Positions 8,478-12,154 of a stretch of DNA of 64,000 nucleotides are shown piece after piece. Numbering within the stretch: position 1 is the first letter of the stretch; each line of letters begins with the position of its first letter. Below the pieces are notes generated by a model. The model searched no databases and was not told where the DNA came from. It worked only from the letters and a program-made list of their open reading frames with translations. Source of the DNA: Marivirga arenosa (GTDB taxonomy: Bacteria; Bacteroidota; Bacteroidia; Cytophagales; Cyclobacteriaceae); assembly GCF_030503895.2 (NCBI RefSeq), contig NZ_CP129970.2:2775001-2839000 (forward strand). The letters run 5' to 3'. Position numbers and translations under genes: made by a program.

Positions 8478-10286
8478 TTAAGCAAGTTTGCTTTTGTAAT
8501 TTTGACTTTTAATGTTTTCTTCCACCTCTTTTACAGGGATATTCATGACAACATTAATACCTTGTCCAGGTTTTGAATTAAAATAAACAGCACCATTAAT
8601 AGTATTAATACGAGCGTAAATACTTCTCATACCTAAGCCTGAATCTACAACATTTTGTACATCAAATCCTTTACCATCATCCTCATAAAACAAATTAATT
8701 TCATCATCTACCAAGCTTATCTGAATAGAAATCTGTTGAGCTTCAGCATGTTTGATAGTATTATTAATTAATTCTAAAACTATATGGTAGATATTCCTTT
8801 CTATTTCCAGACTCAAGCGTTTTTGTAAACCGTATATTGATAAATCAGCATTTATTTTCTCTGCATCATTTATAGTTCTAACAATGTCTTTTAAGGCTGT
8901 TTCAAGTCCAAAACGACTTAACATATCGGTAGATAAATTGTGGGAGATCTCTCGGGTTTCTTTTATGGCTTCATTAATATTGATTAGCAATTTTTCCCTT
9001 AAGCTTTCAGAATCTCCATTTTGACCTGATTGAAATAATAATTTTATTGAGGATAGTCGAGCACCCAATCTGTCATGCAGATCACTAGCAATTCTATTCC
9101 TTTCTTCTTCCTGGCCGTGCATCATAGCATTAAGCTCTTTTAATTCCTGTTCTGTCTTCATGTTTGCAATTTCCTCATTCTTCAATTTTTTAAGGTAATC
9201 TTGCTTTTGAAGGAAGAACCATATAGTAGATATGACCAATAATACTAAGAAGAAACTGAGGCCAAGGAATAAATTTTTCTGAAAGTTTTTCTGCTCAATA
9301 GCCTTTTGCTGTTCTTTAATTTCAGCTTCTTTGAGTTCGGTTTCGTATTTAGTTTCCAGGTTTTTAACCTCTTTCATTCTTTCGGTACTATATAAAGAGT
9401 CTCTGAGGTTATTAAATTTTTCAAAAAAATTAGATGCTTCTTGAACTTCACCTAATTGCATTTTCACTTTAACAATATTTGAATATAAGTGCATTTTTCT
9501 ATATTCATCTCCAACCTTTTTTGCCAATTGAAGACTTTTTTCATATTTATCCAGGCTCTCTTGGTATTTTTTTTCTTTTAATAAAATATTACCAACAGAC
9601 ATATATTCTTGGGCAACCATGTAATCATTATCTAAAAATTTAGATAATTCTAATGCTTTGTTATAACTTTTGATAGATGCATCTAAATTTTCTTCATTTT
9701 CATACAAGACACCTAAATTATGATAAATGGAAGCAATATTAAATGTGTCCTTTATTTTATTAAATGATTGGAGTGAATTTAAATAATAATAAATTGCTGA
9801 ATCATTATTAGAGAAAATAGTATCTTTAGAGGCATAAATAGTACCAATATTCATATTTATTATTGCCTTTCTTCTATCTTTAGTATTCCCTATTAATTTA
9901 TTTGCAGCTTTATAATATTCAAGTGCTAATTTTATATTGGAAGGATTATAGTAATTACCTAGATTATTATAATTACTAACTAAACCTCTATCGTAATTTA
10001 ATTTTTTATTAATTCTTATGGCATCATAATAATAATTTAGAGCTAATTCTTTATTTTCTGTTTGATTATAATTGATTCCTAAATAATTGTATGATTTTGA
10101 GATCCCCAATGAATCATTATTTGATTTGAATAATTCAACCGCCTTTAAAAAATAATTTATTGATGAATCATATTCTTTTCTAGATCGTAAAGATTTAGCT
10201 TTTTCATAAAATGTATTTTCTGACTTTTGGCAAATGGTATTCAGAGAATAGATGAAAAGTAACCAGATTATTATTAATGATCTCAT
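8478..10286 (-). CDS. TPR-containing sensor histidine kinase (HisKA_3 type)
   Basis: N-terminal signal-like segment (1-19), six or more TPR units (about 25-300) predicted to be periplasmic, a coiled coil (about 303-335), one membrane helix (338-360), then a cytoplasmic kinase. The dimerisation/phosphoacceptor box EERNRIASDLHDRLGARLSS places the phosphorylated histidine at H404. The ATPase domain has ELINNTIKHA (N-box), YEDDGKGFD and GLGMRSI (G-boxes). Such TPR kinases pair with LuxR-type regulators; the one at 5724-6374 is the nearest candidate. It is 35 bp downstream of the tiny lipoprotein gene at 10322-10471 and probably co-transcribed with it. Confidence 0.9.
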   Translation of the reverse strand: MRSLIIIWLLFIYSLNTICQKSENTFYEKAKSLRSRKEYDSSINYFLKAVELFKSNNDSLGISKSYNYLGINYNQTENKELALNYYYDAIRINKKLNYDRGLVSNYNNLGNYYNPSNIKLALEYYKAANKLIGNTKDRRKAIINMNIGTIYASKDTIFSNNDSAIYYYLNSLQSFNKIKDTFNIASIYHNLGVLYENEENLDASIKSYNKALELSKFLDNDYMVAQEYMSVGNILLKEKKYQESLDKYEKSLQLAKKVGDEYRKMHLYSNIVKVKMQLGEVQEASNFFEKFNNLRDSLYSTERMKEVKNLETKYETELKEAEIKEQQKAIEQKNFQKNLFLGLSFFLVLLVISTIWFFLQKQDYLKKLKNEEIANMKTEQELKELNAMMHGQEEERNRIASDLHDRLGARLSSIKLLFQSGQNGDSESLREKLLININEAIKETREISHNLSTDMLSRFGLETALKDIVRTINDAEKINADLSIYGLQKRLSLEIERNIYHIVLELINNTIKHAEAQQISIQISLVDDEINLFYEDDGKGFDVQNVVDSGLGMRSIYARINTINGAVYFNSKPGQGINVVMNIPVKEVEENIKSQNYKSKLA

Positions 10287-10321: not shown

Positions 10322-10471
10322 TTACTCTTCGATATCAGTATTTGTAGATTCACTACATCCTGAAGTACATTCAGTAGTATCAAAATTTGGTTCTTCGATT
10401 AATTCACAAGCTGAGAATGTAAATATTGAAGCTAATATTAATGCGTATTTGATTGTTTTTAAAGTCTTCAT
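10322..10471 (-). CDS. 49-residue lipoprotein
   Basis: A short reading frame starting ATG at 10471 and ending TAA at 10322. It has a charged N-terminus, a hydrophobic stretch (ALILASIFTF) and a lipobox FSAC with the lipidated cysteine at residue 22. The mature part is only 28 residues, acidic (EE near both ends), and has two further cysteines in an ECTSGCSES segment. It is a typical lipoprotein precursor in miniature. Placement immediately upstream of the TPR histidine kinase suggests a periplasmic partner or ligand for that sensor, which is inference. No family is recognised. Confidence 0.72.
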   Translation of the reverse strand: MKTLKTIKYALILASIFTFSACELIEEPNFDTTECTSGCSESTNTDIEE

Positions 10472-10832
10472 AATCCTATTGTTTAGTGTTGTTAATGATT
10501 TTACAATATTAGGACTATTTAACTAATTGGAAAACACTAGTTTAGAGGTTATTTAAATTATTATTTGGGCTTATATTTATTACCTATTCTTATTCTATCC
10601 AATAAAAAAGGGGTGAAATTAAAATAAAAATGGGGTTTTTAATCGACTTTAATCTTTATAATAAAATAATAATGTAGATTTTTAAATTGTTGAAAATCAA
10701 TGGTAAAGCTGGGTTTTAACTATTTCTTAGGCTTTTCATTAGTATTATATCATCAGATTAAAATTAAATTATTAACCACCAAATTGAAATAGAACTACCC
10801 CTAAAATAGTTTAAAATACCCCATTTATGGTG
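10472..10832. other. AT-rich spacer without recognised gene
   Basis: Between the small lipoprotein gene and the ncRNA promoter this stretch is very AT-rich, with homopolymer A and T runs. I find no convincing reading frame or hairpin. It presumably holds the promoter of the lipoprotein-kinase unit; the closest match on the minus strand is a one-mismatch -7 box (TAATATTG) near 10510. Confidence 0.5.
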
Positions 10833-10863
10833 TTTGACAGAAGTTCTCACTGTGCTACCTTTG
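10833..10863 (+). promoter_or_regulatory. Perfect Bacteroidota promoter of the ncRNA candidate
   Basis: TTTG at 10833-10836, exactly 19 bases, then TACCTTTG at 10856-10863. This matches the TTTG-N19-TAnnTTTG consensus of the Bacteroidota primary sigma factor without mismatch. Transcription should start at about 10867-10870. Confidence 0.8.
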
Positions 10864-10866
10864 AAA

Positions 10867-11017
10867 TGTCGTTAATCAATTATGCTTTAGGCATTCAACC
10901 AAGACCTTTAATTATATAGCGACATCACCCGATAAGATGGGACATATTAAAAGTGATAGATAACTTCTCCCCTATTGTTGTTAAGATATCATTTGTTCCA
11001 TCTTAGAGGGTTTTTTT
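10867..11017 (+). ncRNA. Structured small RNA or attenuating leader, about 150 nt, unknown family
   Basis: A transcription unit without a reading frame: perfect promoter at its 5' end and an intrinsic terminator at its 3' end. Domain 1 is closed by UGUCG (10867-10871) with CGACA (10920-10924) and contains an AUGC/GCAU hairpin (10882-10894). Domain 2 is closed by ACCC-GA-UAAGAUGG (10927-10940) with CCAUCUUA-GA-GGGU (10998-11011), giving 12 Watson-Crick pairs around a tandem G-A mismatch, with inner UGAUA/UAUCA pairing. Seven T residues follow. It does not resemble tmRNA, SRP RNA, 6S RNA or a riboswitch that I know. It could be a trans-acting sRNA or a terminating leader of the gene at 11075. 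Confidence 0.65.
10998..11017 (+). terminator. Intrinsic terminator of the ncRNA candidate
   Basis: The 3' arm of the closing stem (CCATCTTAGAGGGT) is directly followed by TTTTTTT. Its 5' arm is at 10927-10940, so the loop is an entire folded domain rather than a short tetraloop. Confidence 0.7.
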
Positions 11018-11074
11018 AGCTTTAATAAAAAATATACATATGTAGCATAGGGGCTATCATTAAAACCGCATAAG

Positions 11075-12154
11075 ATGACATACTCCAGTACTACATCCAT
11101 AAAGAGTACCTTTCTAGCCAAGCATCATCTATTGCAAAAGAAAATGAATCCTGCATTAAAAATGCTTGCAGAAGTTACAGATTCTACACGTTCATTTTTG
11201 GTATTATGGGATGAAGATTTCCAACAAATTTATTCTGTTGAAAATGATCAACATACTGAAATAACTTTAGATATAAATTCATTTAAGTCTAAAATAGCTC
11301 GATTACAACAAGAAGTTATTTATGTGCCAGATTTTAAACTGCACACATTATTTAATAAAATTGATATTTTTAATGATTTTGAAGAGGGTAGACAATTACT
11401 TATTTATCCTTTAGTAGATGATGATCAGCAAATTAAGGGTATGCTAGGAATTATGTTGCCTGATCATCATAAAAATGATTTTGATCAATTATTTCAAAAG
11501 ATGGAATCATTAGGTGAATATATTAATTCAATATTTCATTCCTATTTAGATGAACTAATTAATCATTCACTTTACCAATTGAATTTTGATAATTTACCCT
11601 CTTCTTTTTTTGAATCAGAAATTAACCAGGATTCGGAAATATTAGATGTTAAATTTAGTAAGCACCTTATGAGAAAGCACCCTGCTTTTGAATTTGAGGA
11701 ATCAAAAAGTAAAAGGCTTAGTAAGCTATTGAGCATGCCTCTATCTGATTTTTATGAAAATATCAGACAAGTAGGAGGAGATCATAATATGGAATATGTT
11801 TATGGTTGTACTAACAAAACAATGGAGAAAAGATACTATTTGATTAAGCTTTATATCAAAAGAATTGAAGATGGTAGATTTAAATTCTTTGGAGTCCTTG
11901 AAGATTTCAATCTACAAAAGGCTTACTCTACTTTGCTTGATCAAATTATATTTGATATTTCCCATATCATGAGAAGACCTGTAGTAACTATGAAAGGTCT
12001 TACTAATTTAATTGACATTGAAAAATTCGATCGAAATGATCTTCAAGAAATATCTTCTAAAATAAAGACAGTTTCTGAAGAGATGGAAGATTATATAAGA
12101 TCGATGTTTAGGATATATGAGGCCAAACAAGATTCCATATATCACTTAGGTTAA
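11075..12154 (+). CDS. GAF/PAS-like protein with a DHp-like helix but no kinase ATPase domain
   Basis: 359 residues, no signal peptide or membrane helix. Residues about 15-155 look like a GAF domain (SFLVLWDEDFQQIYSVEND, LLIYPLVDDDQQIKGMLGI). Residues about 165-280 look PAS-like, ending FKFFGVLEDFNLQKA. The C-terminus (285-350) resembles a histidine-kinase dimerisation domain, with H297 in FDISHIMRRPVVTMKGL, strikingly like the H-box SVSHNIRGPVASLEGL of the kinase at 13665. The protein then ends, with no HATPase domain. It may act as a phosphotransfer or dimerisation partner. The start codon sits in an ATAAGATG octamer that repeats the ncRNA stem. Confidence 0.65.
   Translation: MTYSSTTSIKSTFLAKHHLLQKKMNPALKMLAEVTDSTRSFLVLWDEDFQQIYSVENDQHTEITLDINSFKSKIARLQQEVIYVPDFKLHTLFNKIDIFNDFEEGRQLLIYPLVDDDQQIKGMLGIMLPDHHKNDFDQLFQKMESLGEYINSIFHSYLDELINHSLYQLNFDNLPSSFFESEINQDSEILDVKFSKHLMRKHPAFEFEESKSKRLSKLLSMPLSDFYENIRQVGGDHNMEYVYGCTNKTMEKRYYLIKLYIKRIEDGRFKFFGVLEDFNLQKAYSTLLDQIIFDISHIMRRPVVTMKGLTNLIDIEKFDRNDLQEISSKIKTVSEEMEDYIRSMFRIYEAKQDSIYHLG

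Follow-up and report, generated by a model that had tools for sequence, protein, structure and literature searches.

A structured small RNA lies on the plus strand of the window (the whole 64,000-nucleotide stretch of Marivirga arenosa DNA analysed here), modelled at positions 10864-11016 from its fold, a covariance model and covariation. An earlier note on this DNA had proposed a non-coding unit at this place, and re-reading the window bore out both its location and its sequence. Downstream follows a gene for a 359-aa protein (11075-12154, plus strand) that belongs to no Pfam or NCBIfam family and adjoins the RNA in 9/9 species, including the diverged species G008, where the downstream gene was confirmed. 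Among 39 genomes, this protein occurs in the nine Marivirga and weakly in one other genus; by eye, its C-terminal part resembles a histidine-kinase dimerisation segment without the ATPase domain. The divergent neighbour on the other side is a 49-aa lipoprotein-like ORF (10322-10471, minus strand), and behind it stands a TPR histidine kinase with HisKA_3 and HATPase_c domains (8478-10286, minus strand). The lipoprotein-like ORF is found near the RNA in eight of nine species, and the kinase in six, which are all those where it was looked for. The small ORF carries a conserved FTFSACELIEEPN and has a weak, sub-cut-off NCBIfam match to a pheromone model (E 0.0083).

Judged by sequence, the RNA has its own promoter and an intrinsic terminator. 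Its -7 box (10856-10863, plus strand) fits TANNTTTG in all nine homologues, reading TACCTTTG in eight and TACATTTG in G002. The Bacteroidota promoter has TTTG/TANNTTTG as its consensus, in which the final G of the -7 box stands at -5 (PMC6847099); because of this spacing, the 5′ end is expected near 10868. A -33 element, TTTG (10833-10836, plus strand), is separated from the -7 box by 19 nt, and the window sequence also reads TTGACA at 10834-10839. Both are confined to the window’s species. Since the relatives among the nine species compared are T-rich at that place while keeping the -7 box, TTGACA is incidental. The promoter that had been called perfect is so in the window’s species; for the family the description fails, the -33 TTTG and TTGACA having no counterpart in the relatives. 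Downstream, the terminator stem runs into seven T (11011-11017, plus strand). The unit is absent from a simple promoter and terminator scan of the window because that scan applied E. coli promoter rules and allowed terminator loops of 3-8 only.

The RNA folds into two hairpins, both with covariation. Hairpin 1 (10866-10925, plus strand) is closed by pairing of 10866-10873 with 10918-10925 and is not present in this form in G008. Hairpin 2 (10927-11011, plus strand) is also the terminator stem: ACCC (10927-10930) pairs with GGGU (11008-11011), followed by a tandem G-A mismatch and 12 pairs (10933-10944 with 10994-11005). Every element of the second domain as first described, the 12-pair stem, the tandem mismatch and the seven T, was located in the window; the mismatch is retained in four of nine species when the alignments are read by eye. 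The segment 10865-11020 has a folding energy of -41.8 kcal/mol, whereas its shuffled versions average -24.9 (sd 3.19, z -5.3) and 0/200 of them are as low. Folded singly, the G002 and G008 sequences are also well structured (z -5.79 and -3.65), the G008 fold lacking hairpin 1 in the form seen in the window.

Compensatory substitutions in relatives, on which the earlier note had let its proposal depend, are present in both alignments that were examined. In the MAFFT alignment of seven sequences, 99.5% of cells pair and 10 cells are changed on both sides compared with 4.0 in shuffles (0/500 as high). A weak measure, the number of pairs with two-sided change, gives 5, a value reached by 21/500 shuffles, and the 11 further pair types do not exceed shuffles (465/500). 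The nine-sequence alignment was fitted to the covariance model and is hence biased towards the model’s pairs; there, 98.1% of cells pair, 13/30 pairs are changed on both sides against 4.6 in shuffles and 28 cells against 7.3 (0/500 for each), and slid controls yield at most two pairs with two-sided change. These substitution patterns indicate that the fold is maintained by compensatory change.

The family was assembled stepwise. A blastn search of 39 relatives matched six further species of the genus strongly (72-84% identity), and a seven-sequence covariance model, run on 295 family genomes, added an eighth member in G002 (E 2.2e-9). The ninth, in G008, was found at the locus upstream of the downstream gene with filters off (42.1 bits, E 3.3e-7); the seven-sequence model with strict filters missed it, and the nine-sequence model, which contains it, recovers it. 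The nine-sequence model matched 10/390 family genomes, all Marivirga, and had no match in the other 83 family genera searched. Its positives are circular because the model contains those sequences; this does not apply to its negatives, but weak matches are lost under strict filters. The RNA was found in all ten Marivirga genomes searched, that is, nine species plus a second genome of the window’s species. A pattern scan of 84,980 genomes returned eight records, two of them Marivirga and the other six taken as chance; its exact pattern misses several known members. On these searches, the RNA is apparently restricted to one genus.

This structured RNA family is absent from Rfam 15. The whole window at the gathering threshold gave no match at the RNA, the unit searched at E up to 10 gave a single chance hit of 13.6 bits, where the gathering score is 100, and ten related loci gave none, so the earlier failure to assign a known family stands. 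By model score the RNA is not the genome’s 6S either: the RF00013 and RF01685 models, searched over the whole genome at E up to 10, had no match at it. That the RNA is nevertheless the 6S RNA of Marivirga, diverged beyond recognition by Rfam, would accord with its size of about 150 nt and free-standing gene, both features of 6S and 6S-Flavo, and with the finding of no 6S above cut-off anywhere in the window’s genome; yet its two separate hairpins with fixed loops are not the single rod with a central bubble, and three sub-threshold 6S-Flavo matches lie elsewhere, which leaves this identity very improbable. The best of the three, at G000:C1:2196956-2197110 on the minus strand (locus L039; 33.8 bits, gathering score 85, E 0.0045), is possibly a diverged 6S RNA of the window’s genome. 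A short coding gene was suggested by a 17-codon ATG ORF at RNA position 3 in the window, but the ATG precedes the expected transcript start, the helices change by compensation, an ATG ORF of at least 10 codons stands at that position in only 5/9 species and encodes differing peptides, and an ATG ORF of at least 10 codons is missing altogether from G006 and G008. The coding reading was rejected on this lack of conservation across nine species and has next to no probability left. A literature search whose scope ended before subscription journals and preprints found no report of a small RNA in Marivirga, no paper on a trans-encoded sRNA type I toxin-antitoxin system for Bacteroidetes and, among the matches listed for structured RNA and covariation in Cytophagales, none on Marivirga. 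The unit is almost certainly a real, undescribed and apparently genus-restricted structured sRNA.

While the stems drift, two single-stranded stretches do not: an element of hairpin 1 and the C-rich loop of hairpin 2. The former, CAACCAAGACCTTT (10896-10909, plus strand), reads A[AC]CCAARAYYUU in 9/9. The latter belongs to the apical TAAC-loop-GTTA (10961-10983, plus strand), whose 23 nt are invariant in seven species; it is the proposed pairing seed, with TCCCCTAT (10968-10975, plus strand) as its core. The apical loop reads UAACUUCUCCCCUAUUGUUGUUA in seven species, AACAGGUCCCCUAUACUGUU in G002 and GCUCCCCCUAUUGUUGUU in G008, so that UCCC(C)CUAU is common to nine, and the computed probability that the loop core is unpaired is at least 0.99 in 9/9. 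The RNA is non-coding and displays a conserved, accessible seed, as a trans-acting base-pairing sRNA does, and it probably acts mainly by base pairing through this C-rich loop.

Beside the RNA promoter lies an imperfect inverted repeat, the putative operator AATACCCC-ATTTAT-GGTGTTTG (10815-10836, plus strand). In the form ACCCC-N6-GGTGTTT, with GGTG exactly 27 bp before the -7 box, it is recognisable in 8/9 species, more weakly in G008; near the RNA promoter of G002 it is not recognisable. A distal ACCCC half-site (10797-10801, plus strand) stands 21 bp before the next half-site, a second copy of the operator, ATAACCTCTAAACTAGTGTTTT (10531-10552, minus strand), lies upstream of the lipoprotein-like ORF, and the same intergenic region contains ACCCC-N17-ACCCC on the opposite strand (10610-10636, minus strand). 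A matrix built from eight operators scored highest 53-89 bp upstream of the lipoprotein-like ORF in 7/7 species tested, each of these seven sites scoring above all 500 shuffles; the seven are the species with that ORF located, G002 and G008 being left out of the scoring. The bare pattern ACCCC-N16-18-ACCCC is not enriched in the genome (five matches, two in the RNA’s intergenic region and three inside ORFs, against seven for the reversed control) and was dropped as evidence; the longer pattern with GGTG has one match, the RNA promoter. Since the operator is common to the RNA promoter and the lipoprotein/kinase operon, the RNA is likely co-regulated with that operon.

The kinase resembles MctS, LiaS, UhpB, FimS, NarQ and NarX, in each case below cut-off. 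These kinases mostly pair with NarL/LuxR-type regulators. At the operator, TACCCCT fits TACYYMT, the NarL heptamer (PMC4886647), which is no more than suggestive of a NarL-type regulator.

Partners for the loop were sought with its complement, AACAATAGGGGAGAAG, which at up to two mismatches gave 62 non-self hits in eight genomes against 24 for the reversed pattern. This excess was dropped as evidence. Another ORF of at least 60 aa contains the hit in 58/62 cases, in 10 of them on the antisense strand of that ORF; hits common to orthologues of other genes look coding-driven. Of the remainder, L151 is in the peptide’s own frame and L096, L109 and L155 are in no ORF of at least 60 aa by the script’s rule, L096 being the peptide’s leader. 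One recurrent site falls where translation of a small hydrophobic ORF begins, an ORF for a 42-48 aa single-span membrane peptide (locus L157; in the window’s genome at G000:C1:2295826-2295951 from TTG, plus strand; start region AGGGGAGAAGUU). It is flanked by what are presumably a DUF502-like and a UvrD-like helicase gene. Neither Pfam nor NCBIfam matches the peptide, which contains one hydrophobic 19-residue span with a mean hydropathy of 2.2-2.8, as expected of a small single-span type I peptide. Orthologues (E < 1e-11) occur in 7/10 Marivirga genomes, representing six species, with diverged ORFs at the same position in G002 and G008; no peptide gene was found in G001, which is 86% complete. 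A -7 box precedes the ORF, TATATTTG in 5/6 species and TATATTTA in G007.

The start region of this candidate target matches 12 nt of the loop in six species. Across ten genomes, the exact 12-mer AGGGGAGAAGTT is present 24 times: eight times in the RNA itself, six times at the peptide ORF (five species) and ten times inside other ORFs; in G006, the sixth species, a single A-to-G change at the site keeps a G:U pair. Predicted loop-leader duplexes in the six species reach -22.3 to -30.5 kcal/mol, compared with -13.3 at best among 56 window leaders and -19.4 at best among 218 leaders of other fetched loci, controls that overstate the rarity because the candidate was picked by a genome-wide search with 62 hits. 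In these six species, at most 6/1000 shuffled leaders and 14/1000 shuffled loops are as low as the real duplex.

The diverged species G002 and G008 are fairer tests, and one of the two passed. In G008, examined after the candidate had been chosen, the duplex reaches -24.3 (1/1000 shuffled leaders and 9/1000 shuffled loops as low), and the leader pairs with other species’ loops only at -13.0 to -14.8. In G002, the value of -5.9 is at chance level (695 and 811 of 1000 shuffles as low), though the loop core is kept. The pairing accordingly beats nearly all shuffles in 7/8 species with the peptide ORF, G002 being the exception. In the mRNA itself, the target site is partly folded: its unpaired probability, where it was computed, averages 0.25-0.46. 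For the loop’s AUUGUUG half no partner was found, and the hairpin 1 element gave no clear signal against the peptide mRNA (28 to 272 of 300 shuffles as low).

With an assumed 16S tail sequence, the leaders pair more weakly than with the loop: the seven species that have the G-run give -8.4 to -12.2 kcal/mol, and G002 gives -4.8. The AGGGGAG need not be a ribosome site, because the anti-Shine-Dalgarno is hidden in Bacteroidia ribosomes, although the same source reports energies of -8 to -12 for some genes (PMC9976891).

The start of the peptide is ambiguous: an ATG is present in 5/6 species and lost in the window’s species, a TTG or GTG is present in 6/6, and the site falls in the translation start region with either. 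In the six species, positions -12 to -1 relative to the TTG are 11/12 invariant, against 2/28 upstream and 15/30 downstream. A first reading of this block as a Shine-Dalgarno-like leader site before the TTG was abandoned, since the in-frame ATG six codons before the TTG in 5/6 species turns the block into codons 3-6 (R-G-E-V), which lowers the weight of its conservation. Three of the four RGEV codons are identical, compared with 4/17 at other invariant residues (P about 0.09), which is only suggestive of synonymous conservation, and coding constraint is a real rival to target pairing. That the peptide mRNA is a true target is plausible, at slightly below an even chance.

A model that unites these observations, and for which belief and doubt are evenly balanced, is a free-standing trans-acting sRNA, probably under two-component control, regulated through its operator together with the kinase operon. 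A transcription factor that also controls the lipoprotein/TPR-kinase operon would act at the inverted repeat beside the RNA promoter, and would most simply be the kinase’s own NarL-type response regulator. Transcription would end at the RNA’s own terminator, whose hairpin would display the C-rich loop; the loop would pair with G-rich sites in mRNAs and block translation initiation, one candidate target being the mRNA of the membrane peptide. The fullest version, in which a two-component-driven sRNA silences a distant membrane peptide through a 12-15 nt loop seed as a type I-like pair that co-evolves, as in G008, is advanced only tentatively.

Two other readings accept the RNA and assign it differently. 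The unit might be the 5′ UTR of the gene at 11075-12154, with hairpin 2 as the terminator of an attenuator or riboswitch. It does occupy the position of such an element, directly upstream of the same gene in 9/9 species, and ATAGGGG (11046-11052, plus strand) complements the loop, its leader giving the -13.3 kcal/mol noted above as the best in the window. This pairing is not kept, however, falling to between -5.4 and -12.2 in the other eight species; the stretch between terminator and gene is poorly conserved in the alignment, and a casual rather than systematic look noticed no competing antiterminator. A cis leader is therefore unlikely.

More weight attaches to the possibility that the sRNA is real but its fixed loops bind a protein or other mRNAs, the peptide match being a coding coincidence. 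Conservation exceeds what the target needs, both in the AUUGUUG half of the loop and in the hairpin 1 element; G002 keeps the loop core without a target match, and the target block encodes RGEV. Against this, the G008 leader still pairs best with its own loop although the block is non-coding there, and the invariance just before the TTG contrasts sharply with the sequence just upstream. We regard this reading as a serious one, though short of probable.

The trans-acting model has partial parallels elsewhere. In GacA-RsmY/Z cascades, a NarL-family two-component system drives small RNAs whose repeated GGA loops titrate a protein. If the proposed NarL-type regulator is right, the Marivirga RNA would likewise be two-component-driven; unlike RsmY/Z, it shows a single C-rich loop. 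IstR-1/TisB of E. coli is a type I pair in which the RNA is complementary to the mRNA encoding a membrane peptide with a single span. AgrB/DinQ, also of E. coli, is similar in this respect, and DinQ starts with GTG (PMC3567139), where the Marivirga peptide has TTG or GTG at the corresponding place. In both E. coli pairs the partners adjoin, whereas the Marivirga RNA and peptide are about 490 kb apart and their pairing is predicted only.

Within the phylum, GibS of Bacteroides thetaiotaomicron was presented in 2020 as the first trans-encoded sRNA with identified targets (PMC7366714). GibS is likewise an intergenic Bacteroidota sRNA with a conserved promoter and terminator and a conserved unpaired seed for translation start regions, but its seed is a long unstructured 5′ end and its targets are metabolic (PMC7366714). 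The proposed seed of the Marivirga RNA is instead the apical loop of a terminator hairpin in a highly structured RNA; the sequences were compared via Rfam only. Most Bacteroidota mRNAs are without a Shine-Dalgarno and the ribosomes hide the anti-Shine-Dalgarno (PMC6847099, PMC9976891), which bears on how a C-rich seed would act.

Base-pairing sRNAs are little known in Bacteroidota. The Marivirga RNA adds a structured family missing from Rfam 15 and, being confined as far as searched to one genus, strongly covarying, linked by its operator to a kinase operon and provided with a candidate target, offers a compact test case. If the proposed function is true, few earlier examples would exist in Bacteroidota of a membrane peptide placed under signal-driven control by an sRNA.
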